This document shows positions 47,962-56,688 of a stretch of DNA of 56,688 bases, piece by piece (position 1 is the first letter of the stretch; the number at the start of each line of letters is the position of its first letter). Source of the DNA: Methanobacteriota archaeon (GTDB taxonomy: Archaea > Thermoplasmatota > Poseidoniia > Poseidoniales > Thalassarchaeaceae); contig WTHQ01000020.1 of the NCBI GenBank assembly GCA_011523055.1, positions 23,426 through 80,113 on the forward strand, in the 5' to 3' direction. A program made the translations under genes and the position numbers. Under the pieces are notes generated by a model, which was not told the origin of the DNA, searched no databases, and saw nothing but the letters and a program-made list of their open reading frames with translations.

Positions 47962-48912
47962 ATGCGAAACAACGGCTTGTTGTGGATCATCGCATTCCTG
48001 TCAATTTCCTTCCAGGGGTGCGTGGGGGCGACGAGCGACATCCTCCGCGGCGAGGATGAAATCGAAGTCCCTGAATGGCACGTAGGCGACTGGTGGATTT
48101 ACACATTCACGACACCCGATTTTTTTGACGACTCTGCCAGGTTGGTTGTTGCTACGGTAGATGAAGAGGAGGGGGGGACCGCGTACATGTTAGGGATTTC
48201 CTCAGAAGAAGAGGCTCGAAGGCACGCAGTTTTGAACCACAATCCATTCTTGGGGAGGATTACCCACTCCAATTTAGGCGTGTTTGAGAATGGCGTTGAA
48301 CAGGCGGTACTTTCCTTCCCACTGTCCGAAAAATCGTGGACCTTTACCCTGTTTGAAATAGATTGGGCCGCAAGTGCCGAAGTGGAGGGAGAAAAGGCGT
48401 ACGTCAAAGCAACCTCAACAGATGGAAGCAAGATAACATACACCTATGACCATGAAGTTAGATTCATCACCTCGTTCGTCAGGACAGACCCTGGTGGAAC
48501 TGAGTTGCTCAGGATCTCCCTCTCCCAAAGCGGGTCAGGGTATCAAGGAGATGTTCATTTTATGCGGGGGAGAGATCTGCTTGACAAAGAGTACGAAAAC
48601 AACGGTCCAAACGGCGATGTTGAGGACTCCTTCCTTGTCCAAGATCACCCCAATGACGGATCATGGGACGAGATGATCTACTTGATCTCAGCATCATCTG
48701 GATCTGGGGGGTCATCGATTTCACTGACGCTTAGAGACCATACTTCTGCCTCCGTCCTTGAGAGATTTTGGGGGCCAGGGGCTTCAGAGTCTGGTACGCT
48801 TGGTACAATACCCTCACCTAGTGGCGAGTACACATTGACTGCAAGTTTCACTGGCCAAACAGAGTTGGATGTCATGATCGCAGGTGGCATAGGGTTCTCA
48901 TGGAGCATCTGA
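47962..48912 (+). CDS. lipoprotein of unknown function
   Basis: 316 residues with a lipoprotein signal peptide ending in SISFQGC. The mature part starts with EVPEWHVGDWWIYTFTTPDF, a segment type common in surface lipoproteins of marine euryarchaea, and is predicted to be mostly beta strand. The C-terminal region SGEYTLTASFTGQTELDVMIAGG looks like an Ig/PPC-type domain. No catalytic residues seen. It is one base upstream of the esterase gene and cotranscribed with it. Confidence 0.65.
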   Translation: MRNNGLLWIIAFLSISFQGCVGATSDILRGEDEIEVPEWHVGDWWIYTFTTPDFFDDSARLVVATVDEEEGGTAYMLGISSEEEARRHAVLNHNPFLGRITHSNLGVFENGVEQAVLSFPLSEKSWTFTLFEIDWAASAEVEGEKAYVKATSTDGSKITYTYDHEVRFITSFVRTDPGGTELLRISLSQSGSGYQGDVHFMRGRDLLDKEYENNGPNGDVEDSFLVQDHPNDGSWDEMIYLISASSGSGGSSISLTLRDHTSASVLERFWGPGASESGTLGTIPSPSGEYTLTASFTGQTELDVMIAGGIGFSWSI

Positions 48913-48913
48913 G

Positions 48914-49504
48914 ATGGGTCTGGAAGGCCATCTGGTCATGCTCCACGGCATGACCGGCACCGCCTCAAAAATGACGCCGCTCGCCGAGAGCCTCGTGCCC
49001 CCTGGATGGGGCGTTTACTGCCCAGAGGGGCCGTTTGCCCACCCCTCCGGAGGCAAGGCTTGGTGGATTAATGGATTGGACAGAACGGAGACCGTGCCTG
49101 ACGTGGGATCTCAGATCTCGATTTCAATGGATAAATTGGAGAACGAGCTCCCTCCGGGGAAATTGATCCTTGGGGGCTTTTCACAAGGAGGAGCAATCGC
49201 CTCGGCCTTCACATCTAGGGTCTCTTTCGAAAGAGTGTTGGGGCTAGTTCTGATCGCCACGAAGACAGTCGAGGCGTCTGAATTGGGAAAACGACTCATA
49301 GAAGTAGCCCCTCGACCTGTGATCTGGATGCACGGAGAGAGGGACCCCATCATTCCTATTGATGAGGCCGTTAGGCACATGAATTGTTTCCTGGCAGCAG
49401 GCTGGGATGTCGAAGAGTTTCGCCATGGCAAAGGGCACATGGTTGACTTGAGCCAAAGGGGTGCTATGGTCCGTTCAATAGAGGGCATCGCCAGACCGGA
49501 TTAG
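48914..49504 (+). CDS. carboxylesterase/phospholipase (alpha/beta hydrolase)
   Basis: 196 residues of the acyl-protein thioesterase/carboxylesterase group. The triad is readable: nucleophile Ser in LGGFSQGGAIAS, Asp in GERDPIIPIDEA and His in HGKGHMVDLSQ. The oxyanion region is VMLHGMTGTASKM. The N-terminus has no signal peptide. It hydrolyses short acyl esters or lysophospholipids in relatives. It is convergent with glutaredoxin, sharing 4 nt at the stops. Confidence 0.88.
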   Translation: MGLEGHLVMLHGMTGTASKMTPLAESLVPPGWGVYCPEGPFAHPSGGKAWWINGLDRTETVPDVGSQISISMDKLENELPPGKLILGGFSQGGAIASAFTSRVSFERVLGLVLIATKTVEASELGKRLIEVAPRPVIWMHGERDPIIPIDEAVRHMNCFLAAGWDVEEFRHGKGHMVDLSQRGAMVRSIEGIARPD

Positions 49505-49767
49505 ACGGCCCTCCTAAGCTCGTCAAATCCGCCTACAAATGCGAGCCCTTGCCTTAAGTCAAAGATGATCGGGACCGTTCTATGGCCAGTCTCTTCAACC
49601 AAAGCTGCACGGAGATCGTAGTTTTCTTGCAAATTCACTTCTGTGAAGGTTAGTTCTTTGCCTTTTAGCAAATTCTTCGCTGCTGTGCAGTAACCGCAGA
49701 AATCTTTTGTAAACAAGAGGAAATCGGTATCTAGGCCCTCAAACTGAAACACTGGTTGCTTCGTCAT
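49501..49767 (-). CDS. glutaredoxin-like protein
   Basis: 88 residues from ATG 49767 (MTKQPVFQFEG). Redox-active CGYC lies in FLLFTKDFCGYCTAA at about residues 24-27, with the TVPIIFD cis-Pro and GGFDELRR motifs of the thioredoxin fold. Archaea usually lack glutathione, so its electron donor is probably thioredoxin-like. It overlaps the 3' end of the upstream protease-transporter gene by 29 nt on the same strand. Confidence 0.87.
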   Translation of the reverse strand: MTKQPVFQFEGLDTDFLLFTKDFCGYCTAAKNLLKGKELTFTEVNLQENYDLRAALVEETGHRTVPIIFDLRQGLAFVGGFDELRRAV

Positions 49768-52700
49768 TCGCAATCTCAAGCGCGCCTGGCATGCCTTCTC
49801 CTAAAACCTCTGTTTCATCAGGGGTGCTATCACCGAGGACCTTGTCGGTTTCATCCTCGTCGATGAAGACCAGCATGAAGACCGTGATCAGCGTCAGGGC
49901 CGCTCCGATATAGATCGCAGATGTGTAGTCGAATACGGAAATCATCCTCTCTGTTAGCGTGTATGCAAACACGCCAGAGAGGTTGAACAGGGACATGTAT
50001 GCAGTGAACTGGGTTCCTCCGACCTTGCTCCAAGTGAGCCTCATGCTCAACGAGATAATGCAAATCCACGCCATTCCACCGACGAAGGCCTGGATGATGA
50101 GATAGACCGTCATCACCGGGGTATTATCCCACATTGATTGGAGGAACGCCAATCCTGCATTTGCCAGAGCGAGGGATGTAAATCCGACCATAGCAACTCT
50201 CCTTACTCCGAACCGGTCCCCAAGCAGGCCACCCACGATCTGGCCGATGAGGGTCCCGAATACGACCACTCCACCGATTATTCCATTGTACTTCGCTTGA
50301 GACCATCCAGCTTCGTTGATGAATATATCAATTACAATAGGCCCCACGAAAATGTACAACTCAGAAAGGAGGCATAATCCAATCAACAAAAACGCCGACC
50401 TGACTGAGAATGCCTTGGTGAGGAAGAAGGATGTCTCAGCGACGCCCCTTCTTGTGCTGGGGGGTAGGATGGAGAGTGGATTAGTGACTGTTCTTGAGGT
50501 CAAACTGTGCGCGAAACTGGTGTAAGAAAGCCCTAGCAGTGCCAGGGAGGCTGCGAGCGCGACGTAGGCGATTGGGTTTGTAAGGCCCCTCAGACGGTCA
50601 CCGAGGGCAAAATCGATGGTGAAGACATCGATTGCGAAGCCAGTTACCCAGACCGAAGCCCCGAAGACTGCCAAGTAAGCCGAGATCGTAATCTTCCTGC
50701 TGTCGAGGGTGTATCCCACGGACTTTGCGACTCGGAATCGATCCTCTGAGAGCCATGGGCCCTGAACCTCAGTATCCTCCGCATTTTTATCGCCTTCCTC
50801 GTCTTCAACGGCCCACCAAACGTCATCCGACTTGGACCATGGGAAGAGCTTCACACCAGGCCTTTCCACCATCGTGAGGGGGACGATCAGGATTGCTGAA
50901 AGCAACGCCAGTTGTATGACAATGACTCCGCTGATTCCTATCTTCGTCACCGCGACTCCAAGAACCGCGCCGCCAACGATAATGCCTGCCCTCTTTGCAG
51001 CGAACATGAAGCCATTCGCTTTGGCCACTTCGTCAGGTTTGAGGATCTCGACTGCAAGGGCGTCAGTCCCGACATCCTGTAGTGATGCGAAGATGTTGTG
51101 AATGAACAATAGCCTTGTCACCAACTCTATCTCGGCGTTGAGATCGGGGACTAACAACAGAGTCCCTAGCGTAAGAACCATCCCCAATTGCGCTATCAAA
51201 ACCCATTGGCGCCTGGCACCGTATCGAGGGATGTTCACTGCATCGACCACCGGGCCCCATATCCACTTGAAGGTCCAAGGTAGAGCTACAGTGGCGAACA
51301 ATATGGCAACGTCACCTATCGCAACCCCATTGTCCACGAGATAGGCCGCGAAGGTCACGCTTGCGAATCCCCATGGAAGGCCCTGAGCGAAGTATAGGAT
51401 GCAAAGAGTGAACATCCTACGAGATTTATTCTCCGTTAGCGCTCCGCCGTGTTTCATTTCCAGGGAAAAGGCCCTGATGCCGTTCATTGGATTCCTTACG
51501 AAGGAAGATTCCGGGTCGCCCCCAGTTTTCTTTTCTTCCTCCTTCCTCTTGACGGTGGTTGTGTTCGCCCAGTCTTCCCTAAGAGCAGTGAAGCCGAGTA
51601 GAACAACGGTTGCGAGGAATGGGATCAAGAAGACGTAGGGGCCTAGTGTAGTCTGTCCCCCCGCTCCTGAGCTTGTGCCTGCTTGGCCGTCAATTAGAAT
51701 GACTCTGCGGGCATCGACTGGAGACATCCTGTCCTCGTTTATGACTAGCCGGGAATAGACAGTTGAGTTACCAGACTCTGAGTGGGGTAGCAACTTTACG
51801 TTCCATGAGGACCAGTCATTGGTCGCAGAGAGATCTGCTGCCTGCTGCCATTCGCCTCCGCCGACCTTCACTTGGACGTAACCGACTCCAGGAACACCTC
51901 CTGTTGAGGTTCCTGATATTCTTGATTCGTTCCCGATTTTCTCTAGCGTGGCTAGATCCATGCTCACATTGAGGGATGAATCTATCGCGCCCGCGGATTG
52001 TACGAACAGCAGCGGATCTGCTTGACCGTATCCGAATTCATTATCTGGCCTTGTCTCAAGAAGGCTGCAGTCGTTTAATCCTGGATCGTCAAGTAGTTGG
52101 ATGTCCCTCTCAATCGAGTGCGCGCTGATTATCGACTTGACCTCGTCGTGAGTGATGTCGGGATTGGCCTCAACCATCAGCGCGGCTATCCCCGCCATCA
52201 AGGGAGTGGCCATGCTTGTCCCAGATTTGCTGGTGTATCCATCGGAGGTGGCGGCATCTGGCGCCATGATGTTTGATCCTATAGTGGAGACGTCGGGCTT
52301 GACCCTGCCATCGGAGGTGTAACCCCTGCTGGAGTAGATAGCGAGGCCCAGATCTTTGTCTAGGCTTGCAACTGTGATTGGCAGGTTTGCGTCACCAGGG
52401 CTGTCTATCGTGTTGCACCCCGCAAAAGTGGCTCCGCCGAATTCATTGCCAGCTGAGAGGAACGTGATGATTCCAGATGCTGCAACAGCATCCATCTGCT
52501 GGCTCCATGCAGATGAGCCATCATTGTCGAAGTGGATCTCCAGCTGCTGCTCTCCGAGGGATGACGTAAGTATGTCGATCCCCTTGGCTTCCTTGTTCTC
52601 AATAGCCCATTCGGCGCCTTCAATAATATCCTGAATATCCCCATCACAGCATGCTAAGATATTGATTATCCATGCTCCTGGGGCCACTCCCACGTATCTG

Positions 52701-53557
52701 GATCCATCAGGGGCCTCTTGCCCACCTCCGGTTCCTGCTGCAATACCAGCAACGTGTGAACCATGTGTGCCTGAATCATAGGATTCTCGCGCAGGCTGCT
52801 CAGAATCAGTTATAACCGCATCAAAAAATGCTGAAATCTTCGGGTCACAGTCTATATTAATTGGATTAGGGTTGAAGGGATCTGGATCTGGTTGGTCGCA
52901 GCCAAGAGTGATCTCATCGTCCATGTCATCCAACCCTGCATGGTCCCCCCGTACTCCTGTGTCAAGCACTGCAATGGTGACACCGGTCCCGTCGTATCCG
53001 TATTGGGCCCAGACTTCCTCAACCCCCATGTTTGGAACCGCTTCGTTCATGTGGGTCTCTGCTAGTCCCAAGTCCTCCATCATGACGACACCGGGCAAAT
53101 CTAGTATCGCGGAGAACGGATTGATCATCTCTATTGGGACATTCGCGATGAGACTATCGAGATAAATCGGCCTCATCGTTACTGATACCCCAAGGGCTTC
53201 CAATGCCCTGACATCAGCCGTTGATGGGTGGTGGTCATAGTCAATGAATAGTCTAGCCTGGCCAGGGTCTGCACGCTTCCACCACGATGATTGGAAATCC
53301 TCTGGCTGGGTCAGAAGCCAAGTGAGCCTATCGTCAATTCTGTCATGATTCGCATCTCTGGACCAGTCGTCCCACCAATCATCGTGGATGTCCAGGGAAT
53401 GACGAGGTTGCCATTCTCCAGCGAAGTCGAAGCCCCCTCTTTTGTCCTGGAGATTGATTTGGGAGGCTGTCATGGGGACGATTAGGGTCGCCAGAATTAG
53501 GAAAGCCAATGCCCGGCGGGTTGCTGCCATCAAACGCACGAGGGGCACACCCCTCAT
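49739..53557 (-). CDS. subtilase (S8) fused to an MFS transporter
   Basis: One uninterrupted 1272-residue frame. Residues 1-30 form a signal peptide; an inhibitor-like prodomain (to about 185) is followed by the S8 protease: Asp in IAVLDTGVRGDH (about 197), His in GTHGSHVAGIAAG (about 267) and Ser in KSGTSMATPLMAGIAALM (about 446). A C-terminal domain to about 600 leads to a TM helix (about 642-662, PYVFLIPFLATVVLLGFTAL), a cytoplasmic linker, and a 12-TM MFS carrier from about 714 (RRMFTLCILYFAQGLPWGFA, AmpG-like) to 1245. An acidic cytoplasmic tail ends it. The protease is extracellular, so it could generate peptides taken up by the carrier. ATG 53530 is an alternative start. Two fused genes, or a lost stop, are possible. 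Confidence 0.85.
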   Translation of the reverse strand: MRGVPLVRLMAATRRALAFLILATLIVPMTASQINLQDKRGGFDFAGEWQPRHSLDIHDDWWDDWSRDANHDRIDDRLTWLLTQPEDFQSSWWKRADPGQARLFIDYDHHPSTADVRALEALGVSVTMRPIYLDSLIANVPIEMINPFSAILDLPGVVMMEDLGLAETHMNEAVPNMGVEEVWAQYGYDGTGVTIAVLDTGVRGDHAGLDDMDDEITLGCDQPDPDPFNPNPINIDCDPKISAFFDAVITDSEQPARESYDSGTHGSHVAGIAAGTGGGQEAPDGSRYVGVAPGAWIINILACCDGDIQDIIEGAEWAIENKEAKGIDILTSSLGEQQLEIHFDNDGSSAWSQQMDAVAASGIITFLSAGNEFGGATFAGCNTIDSPGDANLPITVASLDKDLGLAIYSSRGYTSDGRVKPDVSTIGSNIMAPDAATSDGYTSKSGTSMATPLMAGIAALMVEANPDITHDEVKSIISAHSIERDIQLLDDPGLNDCSLLETRPDNEFGYGQADPLLFVQSAGAIDSSLNVSMDLATLEKIGNESRISGTSTGGVPGVGYVQVKVGGGEWQQAADLSATNDWSSWNVKLLPHSESGNSTVYSRLVINEDRMSPVDARRVILIDGQAGTSSGAGGQTTLGPYVFLIPFLATVVLLGFTALREDWANTTTVKRKEEEKKTGGDPESSFVRNPMNGIRAFSLEMKHGGALTENKSRRMFTLCILYFAQGLPWGFASVTFAAYLVDNGVAIGDVAILFATVALPWTFKWIWGPVVDAVNIPRYGARRQWVLIAQLGMVLTLGTLLLVPDLNAEIELVTRLLFIHNIFASLQDVGTDALAVEILKPDEVAKANGFMFAAKRAGIIVGGAVLGVAVTKIGISGVIVIQLALLSAILIVPLTMVERPGVKLFPWSKSDDVWWAVEDEEGDKNAEDTEVQGPWLSEDRFRVAKSVGYTLDSRKITISAYLAVFGASVWVTGFAIDVFTIDFALGDRLRGLTNPIAYVALAASLALLGLSYTSFAHSLTSRTVTNPLSILPPSTRRGVAETSFFLTKAFSVRSAFLLIGLCLLSELYIFVGPIVIDIFINEAGWSQAKYNGIIGGVVVFGTLIGQIVGGLLGDRFGVRRVAMVGFTSLALANAGLAFLQSMWDNTPVMTVYLIIQAFVGGMAWICIISLSMRLTWSKVGGTQFTAYMSLFNLSGVFAYTLTERMISVFDYTSAIYIGAALTLITVFMLVFIDEDETDKVLGDSTPDETEVLGEGMPGALEIANDEATSVSV

Positions 53558-53631: not shown

Positions 53632-54366
53632 ATGAGCATGCAGCCCGGGCATTCAGTAGTTGAAATTGCCATTCGAGAATTCGCCTTGGGCAAACCGGTC
53701 ATGGTGTTCGACTCCTCATTCAGAGAGAGCGAGACTGATTTACTCTGGCCAGCCCAATTCGCAACCCCAGAAATAATGAGGAGGTTGAGGAAGGACTGTG
53801 GAGGGCTGCTTTTCCTAGCTATTGGGAATGAGATCGGCAGTGTATTCGACCTGCCTTGGCTACAGGATATACACACCCACCCTGCTTTGCTTGAATTGCA
53901 CCCGGTTCTTGATCGCTTGAAGACCAATGACCTGCAATATGATACTAAGTCTGCGTTTACCCTTTCGATTAATCACAGGGACACCTTTACCGGCATCACA
54001 GACAGAGACAGGGCATTGACGACTAGGAGGTTCGGTGAGCTTAGCGGGGAGGTTCTAGGTAGTCAAATGTCAAAGGGGGAGGCTCAAGCAGCATTGGGCA
54101 AGGAGTTCCGTACTCCAGGTCACATACCGGTTTGCAGGGAGTCCCCAGGGGGTCTGTCAAATAGACAAGGTCACACAGAACTCGCTGTAAGCATTGCACG
54201 AATGGCGGGTCTTGTCCCTTGCACTATCGGTGCAGAGATGTTACAACCAGATGGAGATGGGGCCCTACCAGTCAGTGAGGCGAGAGCCTACGCCGAGAGG
54301 CGGTCAATACCAATGTTGACAGGCGAAGATTTGTTGGGATACTTTACCAACCAAGGGGGCGTTTGA
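53632..54366 (+). CDS. ribB: 3,4-dihydroxy-2-butanone 4-phosphate synthase
   Basis: 244 residues. Converts ribulose 5-phosphate to the four-carbon unit for lumazine. Metal and active-site marks are present: the acidic loop FRESETDLLWPAQ (family REGEGDL variant), TFTGITDRDRALT, FRTPGHIPVCRES and RQGHTELAVSIARMAG. No GTP cyclohydrolase II domain is fused, as in archaea. It starts the operon; ATG 53638 is an alternative start. The following ribL begins immediately at the TGA-GTG junction. Confidence 0.93.
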   Translation: MSMQPGHSVVEIAIREFALGKPVMVFDSSFRESETDLLWPAQFATPEIMRRLRKDCGGLLFLAIGNEIGSVFDLPWLQDIHTHPALLELHPVLDRLKTNDLQYDTKSAFTLSINHRDTFTGITDRDRALTTRRFGELSGEVLGSQMSKGEAQAALGKEFRTPGHIPVCRESPGGLSNRQGHTELAVSIARMAGLVPCTIGAEMLQPDGDGALPVSEARAYAERRSIPMLTGEDLLGYFTNQGGV

Positions 54367-54822
54367 GTGACTAGAATAATGGCAGTTGGAGTTTTCGACT
54401 TACTCCACGCTGGGCACTTGCATTATCTAGAGCAAGCCAAACTGCTGGGATCTGAGCTAATTGTCGTGGTTGCCCATGACGACACAGTCCGAACAAGGAA
54501 GCATGAGCCTGTCACCAGTCACGATTTGAGGGCGCGGATGGTTGAAGGTCTGAAGCCCGTTGACGAAGCAATTGTAGGGAATCCCCCCTCTACACCAATT
54601 TACGATATACTCGAAAAGGTGTCCCCAGACATAATTGCACTCGGATACGACCAGAAGCACTCGATCGACTCGGTCAAGGACGGATTATCATCACGGGGGT
54701 ACACTGACGTCAAAGTTACAAGGGTCGAAGGCCTATCAGACGATCTTGACGGGACCAGGAAGATCATTGCGAGGATACTCAATCTATGGCCAAATGAAGA
54801 AGGGGGCCCTTTCGAGGAGTGA
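54367..54822 (+). CDS. ribL: FAD synthetase, archaeal RibL type
   Basis: 151-residue nucleotidyltransferase that transfers AMP to FMN to make FAD. The HxGH motif is GVFDLLHAGHLHYLEQAK at about residues 8-25, with VVVVAHDDTVR and DIIALGYDQKHSID as the C-terminal family marks. Glycerol-3-phosphate cytidylyltransferase is a close relative, but the riboflavin operon context and the GYDQ segment favour RibL. GTG 54367 directly follows the ribB stop; ATG 54379 is an alternative start. Confidence 0.88.
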   Translation: MTRIMAVGVFDLLHAGHLHYLEQAKLLGSELIVVVAHDDTVRTRKHEPVTSHDLRARMVEGLKPVDEAIVGNPPSTPIYDILEKVSPDIIALGYDQKHSIDSVKDGLSSRGYTDVKVTRVEGLSDDLDGTRKIIARILNLWPNEEGGPFEE

Positions 54823-54828
54823 AGTGAC

Positions 54829-55455
54829 ATGTTTACTGGAATTGTGGAAGGAGTTGGTGCCCTACGTTCCTCGGACAAGAGACAAGGATTTACCAATTGG
54901 GTTGTGGAATTCCCCGAAGGTGCTTTAGATGGGATTGAGATTGGCGCCAGCGTCGCCATCGAAGGTGTATGCCTAACAGTGACTTCGATTAACGGGCGAA
55001 GTGCATCTTTCCAAATTATCGAAGAGACGTTGCATAGGTCTACCTTGGGCAACCTACGGCCTGGCGACCCTCTAAATTACGAAAGGTCACTTACCTATGG
55101 AAAGGAGGTCGGGGGCCATCTCGTATCGGGACACGTCATGGAGGTAGGAAAAATAATCAAACGATTGGATTCGAGAGATGAAAACAATGGTGAGGCCACC
55201 TGCAGCATTACAATCCAAACCTCTGAGATGGTTGGAAAGTACATTTTCGAGAAGGGGTATGTATCCATCGATGGAATCTCCCTAACCATCGGAAACACCC
55301 ACAACAATGCATCATTTGATTTGCACATAATTCCCGAGACTCTTCGAAGGACGACACTCGGCCATAAGAAAGAGGGGTCCTTGGTGAATATCGAAATAGA
55401 TTCTATTACAAAGGCCACTGTAGACACAGTGATGCGAATGTCCGATGGAGTATGA
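54829..55455 (+). CDS. ribE: riboflavin synthase, bacterial alpha-subunit type
   Basis: 208 residues with two lumazine-binding repeats: MFTGIVEGVGAL, IEGVCLTVTSI and HLVSGHVMEVG in the first, FEKGYVSIDGISLTIG and TLRRTTLGHK in the second. It dismutates two lumazines to riboflavin. Many archaea use an unrelated riboflavin synthase related to lumazine synthase (RibC type). This one is the bacterial/eukaryotic trimeric form, a possible transfer. It is 6 nt after ribL and runs into ribH. Confidence 0.93.
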   Translation: MFTGIVEGVGALRSSDKRQGFTNWVVEFPEGALDGIEIGASVAIEGVCLTVTSINGRSASFQIIEETLHRSTLGNLRPGDPLNYERSLTYGKEVGGHLVSGHVMEVGKIIKRLDSRDENNGEATCSITIQTSEMVGKYIFEKGYVSIDGISLTIGNTHNNASFDLHIIPETLRRTTLGHKKEGSLVNIEIDSITKATVDTVMRMSDGV

Positions 55456-55459
55456 AAGC

Positions 55460-55858
55460 ATGAAATCAATAGCACTTGTTTGTGGTGAATTCCACAGAAA
55501 TTATGTTGAGGAAATGGTGAATTACGCTAAGGACGAGGCTTCTTCACTCGGCATCGAGATCTCGGATATTGAGTGGGTTCCCGGGTCATACGAAGCCCCC
55601 CTTGCAGCCTCGAGACTGCTAACTCGAGGGGGTGTCCAGGGGGTAGTATGCCTTGGAGTGATTGAGAAAGGAGAGACTGACCACGGACTCGTCATTGGCC
55701 AGGCGGTCTCAGCCGCATTAATGGATCTGCAGATAAAATTTGGAAAGCCAGTGGGTTTGGGCATAATCGGGCCCGGAGCAGAAGAATTCCATATCGGCCC
55801 CAGGCTGGAACCACACGCGAGATCTGCGATCAGAGCAGTTTACTCAATGCTAGATTGA
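55460..55858 (+). CDS. ribH: 6,7-dimethyl-8-ribityllumazine synthase
   Basis: 132 residues from ATG 55460 (MKSIALVCGEFHRNYVEEM); ATG 55445 overlaps ribE and gives five extra residues. Lumazine synthase motifs: GSYEAPLAASRLL, VVCLGVIEKGETDHGLV (the GETxH catalytic region), and VGLGIIGPGAEEFH. It condenses the RibB product with the ribitylamino-uracil. GGAG about ten nt upstream of ATG 55460 and the family's usual start support this start. Confidence 0.9.
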   Translation: MKSIALVCGEFHRNYVEEMVNYAKDEASSLGIEISDIEWVPGSYEAPLAASRLLTRGGVQGVVCLGVIEKGETDHGLVIGQAVSAALMDLQIKFGKPVGLGIIGPGAEEFHIGPRLEPHARSAIRAVYSMLD

Positions 55859-55927
55859 AATTTCTTGAAAACCATCGTCAGGTACCTAGTGTCAATATTC
55901 AAGGGACTCCCGTTACTCCATGGCGAT

Positions 55928-56688
55928 ATGGCCACCGCGCGCAATGTGATAATCATCGGATCTGGACCGGCAGGATACACTGCTGGACTATATTCAGCAA
56001 GGGCAATGATGGAGCCTCTGATGTTTGCAGGTTACATGTCAGGCGGACAGTTAATGCTCACGTCTGACATCGAAAATTTTCCCGGGTACCCCCAGGGAAT
56101 TGGTGGCCCAGAAATGATGCTAGAGCTCCGGGCCCAATCGGAAAGATTTGGGCTTGAGATCCATGACAAGAACGTCGAAAGAGTGGATCTGCGAGAAAGG
56201 CCGTTCGGAGTCTGGGTAGAAGGCGAGGAATACCGGGCAGAAGCCCTAATCATTTGTACTGGCGCCGAAGCAATTTGGCTAGGAGTGGAGGGAGAGGAGA
56301 GCCAGAAAGGGAGAGGCATTTCTACCTGCGCGACATGTGATGGCGCATTTTTCAGGGATGAGGAGGTCATAGTCGTCGGCGGCGGGGACTCTGCCATGGA
56401 AGAGGCAATCTTTCTGACGAGATTCGCCAACAAGGTGACGATAATCCACAGAAGGGATGTTTTCAAGGCCTCCAAGGTGATGCTTGAAAGGGCCAGGAAC
56501 CATCCCAAAATCGAGATATTGACTCACAGGCAGGTAGTGAGGTGGTTGTCTGACGATAAGGGCCTTACAGGTGCTGTAATCGAGGATCCGAGGGACAACT
56601 CAACTGAAGAATTGTCATGCACTGGCGCATTCATTGCGATCGGTCACAAACCTATTACTGATTTTCTTGATGGCCAGGTAGAAACAGA
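55928..56688 (+). CDS. trxB: thioredoxin reductase, partial at right edge
   Basis: 253 codons are visible before the window ends, in a single open frame from ATG 55928. FAD-binding GSGPAGYTAGLYSARA at the N-terminus, redox-active CATCDG at about residues 138-143, NADPH-binding VVGGGDSAMEEAIFL and the HRR segment after it. It reduces thioredoxin-like proteins; the Bcp and glutaredoxin-like proteins in this window are possible clients. Being 69 nt after ribH, it may be cotranscribed with the FAD-making genes. The C-terminal part of the protein, roughly the last quarter, is missing. Confidence 0.93.
   Translation, partial: MATARNVIIIGSGPAGYTAGLYSARAMMEPLMFAGYMSGGQLMLTSDIENFPGYPQGIGGPEMMLELRAQSERFGLEIHDKNVERVDLRERPFGVWVEGEEYRAEALIICTGAEAIWLGVEGEESQKGRGISTCATCDGAFFRDEEVIVVGGGDSAMEEAIFLTRFANKVTIIHRRDVFKASKVMLERARNHPKIEILTHRQVVRWLSDDKGLTGAVIEDPRDNSTEELSCTGAFIAIGHKPITDFLDGQVET

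Follow-up and report, generated by a model that had tools for sequence, protein, structure and literature searches.

Does a single archaeal gene encode both an extracellular protease and a membrane carrier, and what might the cell gain by joining them? The question is raised by a 56,688-nucleotide stretch of contig WTHQ01000020.1 (assembly GCA_011523055.1), which we refer to as the window, from a member of the Thalassarchaeaceae (order Poseidoniales, class Poseidoniia). Here, one open reading frame fuses a subtilase (peptidase family S8), a single membrane helix (TM0), a linker and an AmpG-like carrier of the major facilitator superfamily (MFS). The original prediction, made from the DNA alone, gave the frame 1272 residues, a signal peptide and a complete S8 triad; the frame was recovered at exactly 49739-53557, on the minus strand (which that prediction had left unstated), with signal peptide and triad both present in the sequence, whilst the plus strand of this interval, read in frame, contains many stops. 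Many relatives of the fusion start at the counterpart of Met10, which puts the probable true start at 53530 and the length at ca. 1263 amino acids (aa). The chain, with strands and helices partly taken from an AlphaFold2 (AF2) model, is laid out as follows in window coordinates:

49739..53557, minus strand: complete, uninterrupted S8-TM0-MFS open frame, 1272 aa
53462..53530, minus strand: Sec-type signal peptide MAATRRALAFLILATLIVPMTAS, counted from Met10 and read from the sequence (hydrophobic segment 9-27)
53048..53260, minus strand: probable N-terminal prodomain, about residues 100-170 with inferred limits (fold match to the Tk-SP pro-form, 3afg)
52025..52990, minus strand: Peptidase_S8 catalytic domain, residues 190-511 (Pfam PF00082, E=5.8e-46)
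52961..52963, minus strand: catalytic Asp199, motif VLDTGV
52763..52765, minus strand: catalytic His265, motif HGSHVAG
52445..52447, minus strand: oxyanion-hole Asn371, motif SAGN
52214..52216, minus strand: catalytic Ser448, motif GTSMATP
51659..51997, minus strand: conserved beta-rich domain C-terminal to the protease, residues 521-633 (strands of the AF2 model)
51578..51637, minus strand: TM0, single membrane helix, residues 641-660 (hydrophobicity at 641-659, AF2; like the TM0 of carriers with other ectodomains, F-x-P-[FW])
51431..51577, minus strand: predicted cytoplasmic linker, residues 661-709, fast-evolving and coding (codon analysis; no conserved start codon)
49838..51430, minus strand: AmpG-like MFS carrier, residues 710-1240, 14 predicted helices (Pfam, NCBIfam, AF2, fold matches)
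50525..50686, minus strand: two extra helices, residues 958-1011, between the N and C bundles (AF2 model)

Is the fusion real? A whole-genome search of relatives, together with a named genome collection, recovered it at full length in 87 closed frames, of which 64 are distinct (1166-1340 aa), answering the call of the original prediction for a search in other marine archaea. It is spread through the Thalassarchaeaceae, within the Poseidoniales, and recurs in a further order-level lineage of the Poseidoniia, where two genomes (L145, L146) have S8-MFS fusions. The carrier is held by 109 of 148 Thalassarchaeaceae genomes, and frames of S8-fusion length (≥1150 aa, by table count) occur in ~67 of the 148; record names among the fusion sequences (AG-422-I22, AG-422-I18) suggest single-cell genomes. 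Adjacent S8 and carrier genes split by a stop at the linker, the arrangement that had been named as fatal to the fusion, were seen in no relative examined. Codon substitutions, for which the window fusion was compared with ten relatives, tell the same story: the linker carries 0.47/0.40/0.69 substitutions per codon position and 58 synonymous vs. 55 nonsynonymous single changes, and so evolves as coding DNA, with codon periodicity and an excess of synonymous change. In the S8 domain and both carrier bundles third positions hold 73-76% of changes, and strong purifying selection acts on the two halves alike. The fusion is therefore real and no assembly accident: an assembly error, lost stop or chimeric contig is rejected in view of the many independent genomes and the coding evolution of the linker. 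A separate carrier made from an internal start is likewise rejected, since linker start codons are unconserved and ATG, GTG and TTG are all absent from 8 of 50 linkers. Two genomes hold near-identical second fusion copies cut at contig ends (L012 and L039 on contigs C14 and C7 of G007; L014 and L040 on contigs C11 and C17 of G005), which are probably redundant assembly, not true duplication.

What might such a chain do? We lean, with slightly better than even confidence, towards a membrane-anchored extracellular subtilase joined through TM0 and the linker to an AmpG-like importer, a single-chain device for digestion and import. The signal peptide would send the protease outside, where the prodomain would be removed, TM0 would return the chain to the inside and the carrier would fold in the membrane. 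At the cell surface the protease would then cut proteins or peptides, and peptide-containing products would enter through the carrier beside it, which is probably ion-driven; with digestion and uptake at one spot, little product would escape into the sea. In relatives the place of the protease is taken by an M28 peptidase, which would serve for trimming, or by a cupredoxin or beta domain, which would serve for capture or conditioning. The repeated swapping of the outer part points to a modular machine that would process outside and then import. Its predicted topology agrees with the earlier proposal, as the positively charged residues directly after TM0 (REDW...KRKEEEKK) are consistent with the protease outside and the linker inside.

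Could the outer half be a working protease? The Pfam match, D199/H265/S448 with N371, and the fold match to 3afg place it among the subtilases. Of the 64 distinct relatives with a full-length fusion, every one has the Asp, Asn and Ser motifs, and a strict pattern finds the His motif in 62. The closest solved relatives are Tk-SP-type archaeal subtilisins (PDB 3afg, 9ues), which have an N-terminal prodomain, and the probable prodomain region here resembles ProN-Tk-SP in a fold search; unlike the window protein, they have no carrier attached. The same genome has at least five further subtilase-like frames (L002-L006, L143), one of 1566 aa, none of which match the carrier.

What, then, does the carrier half resemble? 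Pfam models MFS_1, BT1 and Acatn match about residues 715-1240, and these matches (MFS_1) together with AF2 helices in a 6+2+6 pattern place it in the MFS. The 12 transmembrane helices first assigned to it gave way to 14 in the AF2 model, the two extra ones lying between two bundles of six. Its description as AmpG-like held, in that AmpG (PDB 9j9z, 8zgz, 9c3f) is its best sequence match (E=2e-27) and best-ranked carrier by fold, but the NCBIfam AmpG family TIGR00901 matches residues 712-1230 at 115.9 bits against a family cut-off of 350, and because the score falls short of this cut-off the carrier is described here as AmpG-like and not classed as AmpG. We know of no AmpG with an extra TM0 or a peptidase ectodomain, and the hosts here are archaea, which generally have no murein wall to recycle. 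The two share the N-bundle signatures G-L-P, F-K-W-x-W-x-P-x-x-D and QDxxxDA, and the AmpG N-bundle motifs (G29, the Q131 region, RRxW, FKWxWxPxxD) were present when alignments were compared by eye with those of PMC5154545. AmpG likewise has an optional helix pair, TM7-8, as P. aeruginosa AmpG has 14 helices and TM7 and TM8 are absent from many AmpGs (PMC5154545); Poseidoniaceae-type carriers are without the extra pair. The second-nearest solved carrier is AT-1/SLC33A1. POT peptide transporters are among the fold matches, by general MFS similarity only, and the carrier had no POT (PTR2) family match in Pfam or NCBIfam and was not placed there.

By sequence and fold the nearest solved carriers are thus of the AmpG kind, importers of peptide-bearing sugars, and this bears on the direction of transport. 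Were the carrier to run outward, with the external subtilase maturing an exported peptide, protease and carrier would also lie on the right sides, and subtilases do serve as leader peptidases elsewhere, lantibiotic exporters being paired with external S8 leader peptidases. We consider this improbable, as the nearest characterised relatives (AmpG) import, the M28 and cupredoxin forms do not fit, and the syntenic locus showed no recognisable gene for a precursor peptide, though it was not searched systematically.

Is the protease a fixed partner of the carrier? In other Poseidoniia the same carrier clade bears, ahead of TM0, an M28 peptidase, a plastocyanin-like cupredoxin or one of two beta domains, B1 or B2:

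L117, L150-L153, L163, L165-L167, L169: M28 peptidase-MFS forms (for example L117:3107-6013, L150:3062-5704, L165:2342-4948)
L120, L123, L124, L149, L177, L178: cupredoxin-MFS forms (for example L120:3809-5785, L124:3580-5532, L149:3632-5572)
L110, L114, L121, L125: examples of beta domain B1-MFS forms
L118, L126, L128: examples of lipobox-bearing beta domain B2-MFS forms

M28-MFS forms occur in both Thalassarchaeaceae-type and Poseidoniaceae-type genomes, with each metal-binding motif present in 9 or 10 of the 10 forms, and copper-ligand motifs (His, Cys-x2-His, Met) are present in all six cupredoxin forms. B1 had no significant match in a PDB profile search and only weak matches to its AF2 fold (TM-score up to ~0.43, carbohydrate-binding modules among them); no relatedness between B1 and B2 was detectable. 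Non-homologous ectodomains therefore sit on a homologous TM0 and MFS core, the TM0 match being weaker in some S8 subclades, and judged on sequence TM0 and carrier are a chassis with interchangeable ectodomains. A TM0 profile built only from non-S8 carriers scores 25-33 bits against TM0 in the window's genus and less against other S8 subclades, which shows, at the level of sequence similarity, that TM0 travels with the carrier; because the profile includes close B1 carriers of Thalassarchaeaceae, it is silent on the age of TM0. One S8 subclade (L055, L063, L071, L073, L096) has a far shorter linker and an atypical TM0, with a weaker match to the profile in L055, L063, L073 and L096, and perhaps represents a second joint geometry from an independent fusion; a joint made from the S8 protease's own membrane helix is one candidate, but a profile of solo-S8 tails did not match this subclade either.

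Trees indicate repeated exchange. In a detailed carrier-core tree of 36 rows, B1 forms fall in two places among the S8 forms. Forcing the S8 forms into one clade lowered the log-likelihood by 121 (approximately unbiased test, p-AU 4e-73) and forcing the Thalassarchaeaceae B1 forms into one clade lowered it by 112 (p-AU 1e-4), figures that are supportive rather than formal because the groups were picked after the first tree had been seen and the B1 row L154 is a long branch. The whole carrier tree of 62 rows needs at least 11 changes of ectodomain label. Similarly, the S8-domain tree nests unfused S8 proteases of two lineages within the fused ones (moderate support), and these read as proteases released when the carrier gained a new ectodomain. 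Tandem pairs of different S8 proteases (~670 aa each, with C-terminal membrane helices) were found in L107, L108, L109, L111, L113 and L114, in the kind of genome whose carrier bears another ectodomain.

Does the carrier ever occur bare? A class-wide search found the carrier family in 214 of 340 Poseidoniia genomes, and among these 340 no complete carrier of this clade without an ectodomain; the five shortest carrier frames that were fetched are all truncated by contig ends. Ectodomain-less carriers of ~450 aa exist as a separate branch, used as the tree outgroup, and beyond the class no member of the carrier family was found at E≤1e-40 in a sample of the phylum. These results bear on a simpler explanation, that the carrier's solute is unrelated to the ectodomain product and the fusion only fixes the location or amount of the ectodomain. 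Such tethering would suit the chemical diversity of the ectodomains (protease, aminopeptidase, cupredoxin and two beta-rich domains), and S8 is also found with its own C-terminal membrane helix. Yet one helix would suffice for a tether, whilst a full core of 12-14 helices is kept under strong purifying selection, no complete ectodomain-less form of the clade was found, and tethering hardly explains two unrelated peptidases on one carrier; we regard it as rather unlikely, although the most probable of the rivals.

The unfused proteases also raise the possibility that one gene yields two proteins, the finished chain being cleaved, perhaps near TM0 by its own protease, into an ordinary secreted subtilase and an ordinary carrier. 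Subtilases self-process, a Gly/Ser-rich region precedes TM0 and some genera have a free anchored S8, but a cut before TM0 would leave a carrier-type TM0 in place and the fused order is maintained across the family, which makes this outcome decidedly unlikely.

Returning to digestion and import by one chain, what speaks most strongly for this function is convergence. S8 and M28, although unrelated as peptidases, sit on one carrier family, which fits a carrier taking up proteolysis products and supports the proposal without proving it. Genes for amino-acid biosynthesis are missing from Poseidoniales, which look proteolytic, and a dependence on external amino acids has been inferred for them (PMC6461757), and in the set studied by PMC6864105 S8 was found in all and M28 among the commonest predicted extracellular peptidases. 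The proposal, already made in the original prediction, is partly supported, by the widely conserved single chain with its outer protease and by the M28 peptidase on the same carrier family, and several points weigh against it. The cupredoxin, B1 and B2 forms are not obviously tied to proteolysis, an AmpG-like sequence leaves the substrate unfixed, and the chain could be cleaved after synthesis. S8 persists as a separate membrane-anchored protease where it has been replaced on the carrier, so covalent linkage is not indispensable. The AF2 model of the full chain is of moderate confidence (mean predicted local distance difference test score 70.8, predicted TM-score 0.53) and unreliable on the mutual placement of the protease and carrier halves. 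The wider view, that Poseidoniia hold a family of one-chain process-and-import machines whose modules were exchanged repeatedly, partly at one locus, tuning the form of organic nitrogen, sulfur or metal that each lineage draws from seawater, is plausible but falls somewhat short of an even chance.

Is anything like it known? The closest working analogies appear to be PepT1/PepT2 (SLC15) and B0AT1 (SLC6A19). PepT1/PepT2 bind trypsin through their extracellular domain, and the proposal there is that proteolysis is clustered at an MFS carrier, with the protease gathered where peptides are imported (PMC4597091); that protease is separate and soluble, and its binding partner is an Ig-like domain set into the MFS fold, whereas in the window fusion the protease is covalently N-terminal via TM0. 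B0AT1 needs ACE2 for its expression, and aminopeptidase N enhances that expression (PMC5600382), similarly pairing a nutrient carrier with a membrane-anchored peptidase, but as separate polypeptides and with another carrier fold. Extracellular S8 and M28 peptidases have been reported for Marine Group II (PMC6864105, PMC6336850), and those sets probably include these genes; both papers count peptidases and transporters apart and we found no mention of a fusion in them. Major facilitator proteins are unmentioned in the main text of a survey of archaeal fusions (PMC11237513), and in the open-licence full-text literature we found no one-chain S8-MFS combination, swap series or MFS-peptidase fusion. 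The parts belong to known families, and what appears new against that literature is their combination in one chain and the ectodomain swap series. In the surface ocean, Marine Group II ranks among the most abundant archaea; its members are uncultured and thought to live on protein. Covalent coupling of protease and carrier, if true, would account for the ability of a free-living cell to retain what its extracellular enzymes release. A natural swap series on one carrier is also a ready experimental set for the role of ectodomains in MFS transport, a question raised and left open for mammalian PepT1/PepT2.

Do the neighbouring genes point to a function? In Thalassarchaeaceae the carrier gene is flanked on one side by hppA (pyrophosphatase), a 316-aa lipoprotein and a glutaredoxin, and on the other by ribB-ribL-ribE-ribH-trxB, which in the window are:

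49501..49779, minus strand: glutaredoxin-like gene, conserved neighbour, overlapping the last 41 bases of the fusion
53632-56686, plus strand: divergent riboflavin/flavin cluster (ribB, ribL-like, ribE, ribH), then trxB, syntenic in most family members
47962-48912, plus strand: putative lipoprotein, 316 aa, SFQGC lipobox-like, between hppA and an esterase-like gene, synteny conserved

S8-MFS and B1-MFS forms share this one syntenic locus, as do M28-MFS forms on the hppA-glutaredoxin side, which suggests that ectodomains were exchanged repeatedly, partly in situ. The glutaredoxin is mostly co-directional with the carrier in Thalassarchaeaceae, overlapping it or within ~20 bp, and trxB lies near, so the ectodomain might release cystine- or glutathione-like peptides for the carrier to import and the glutaredoxin to reduce; oxidised glutathione is present in a structure of the related AT-1/SLC33A1 (9mun). 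This thiol or sulfur uptake is very improbable, as the glutaredoxin lies on the opposite strand in the family's M28 forms, was not found beside most Poseidoniaceae carriers, and the neighbours may be passengers. We rejected a function read from the neighbours for the same reason: the syntenic riboflavin genes, glutaredoxin and pyrophosphatase look like passengers, and the Poseidoniaceae carriers examined have different neighbours.

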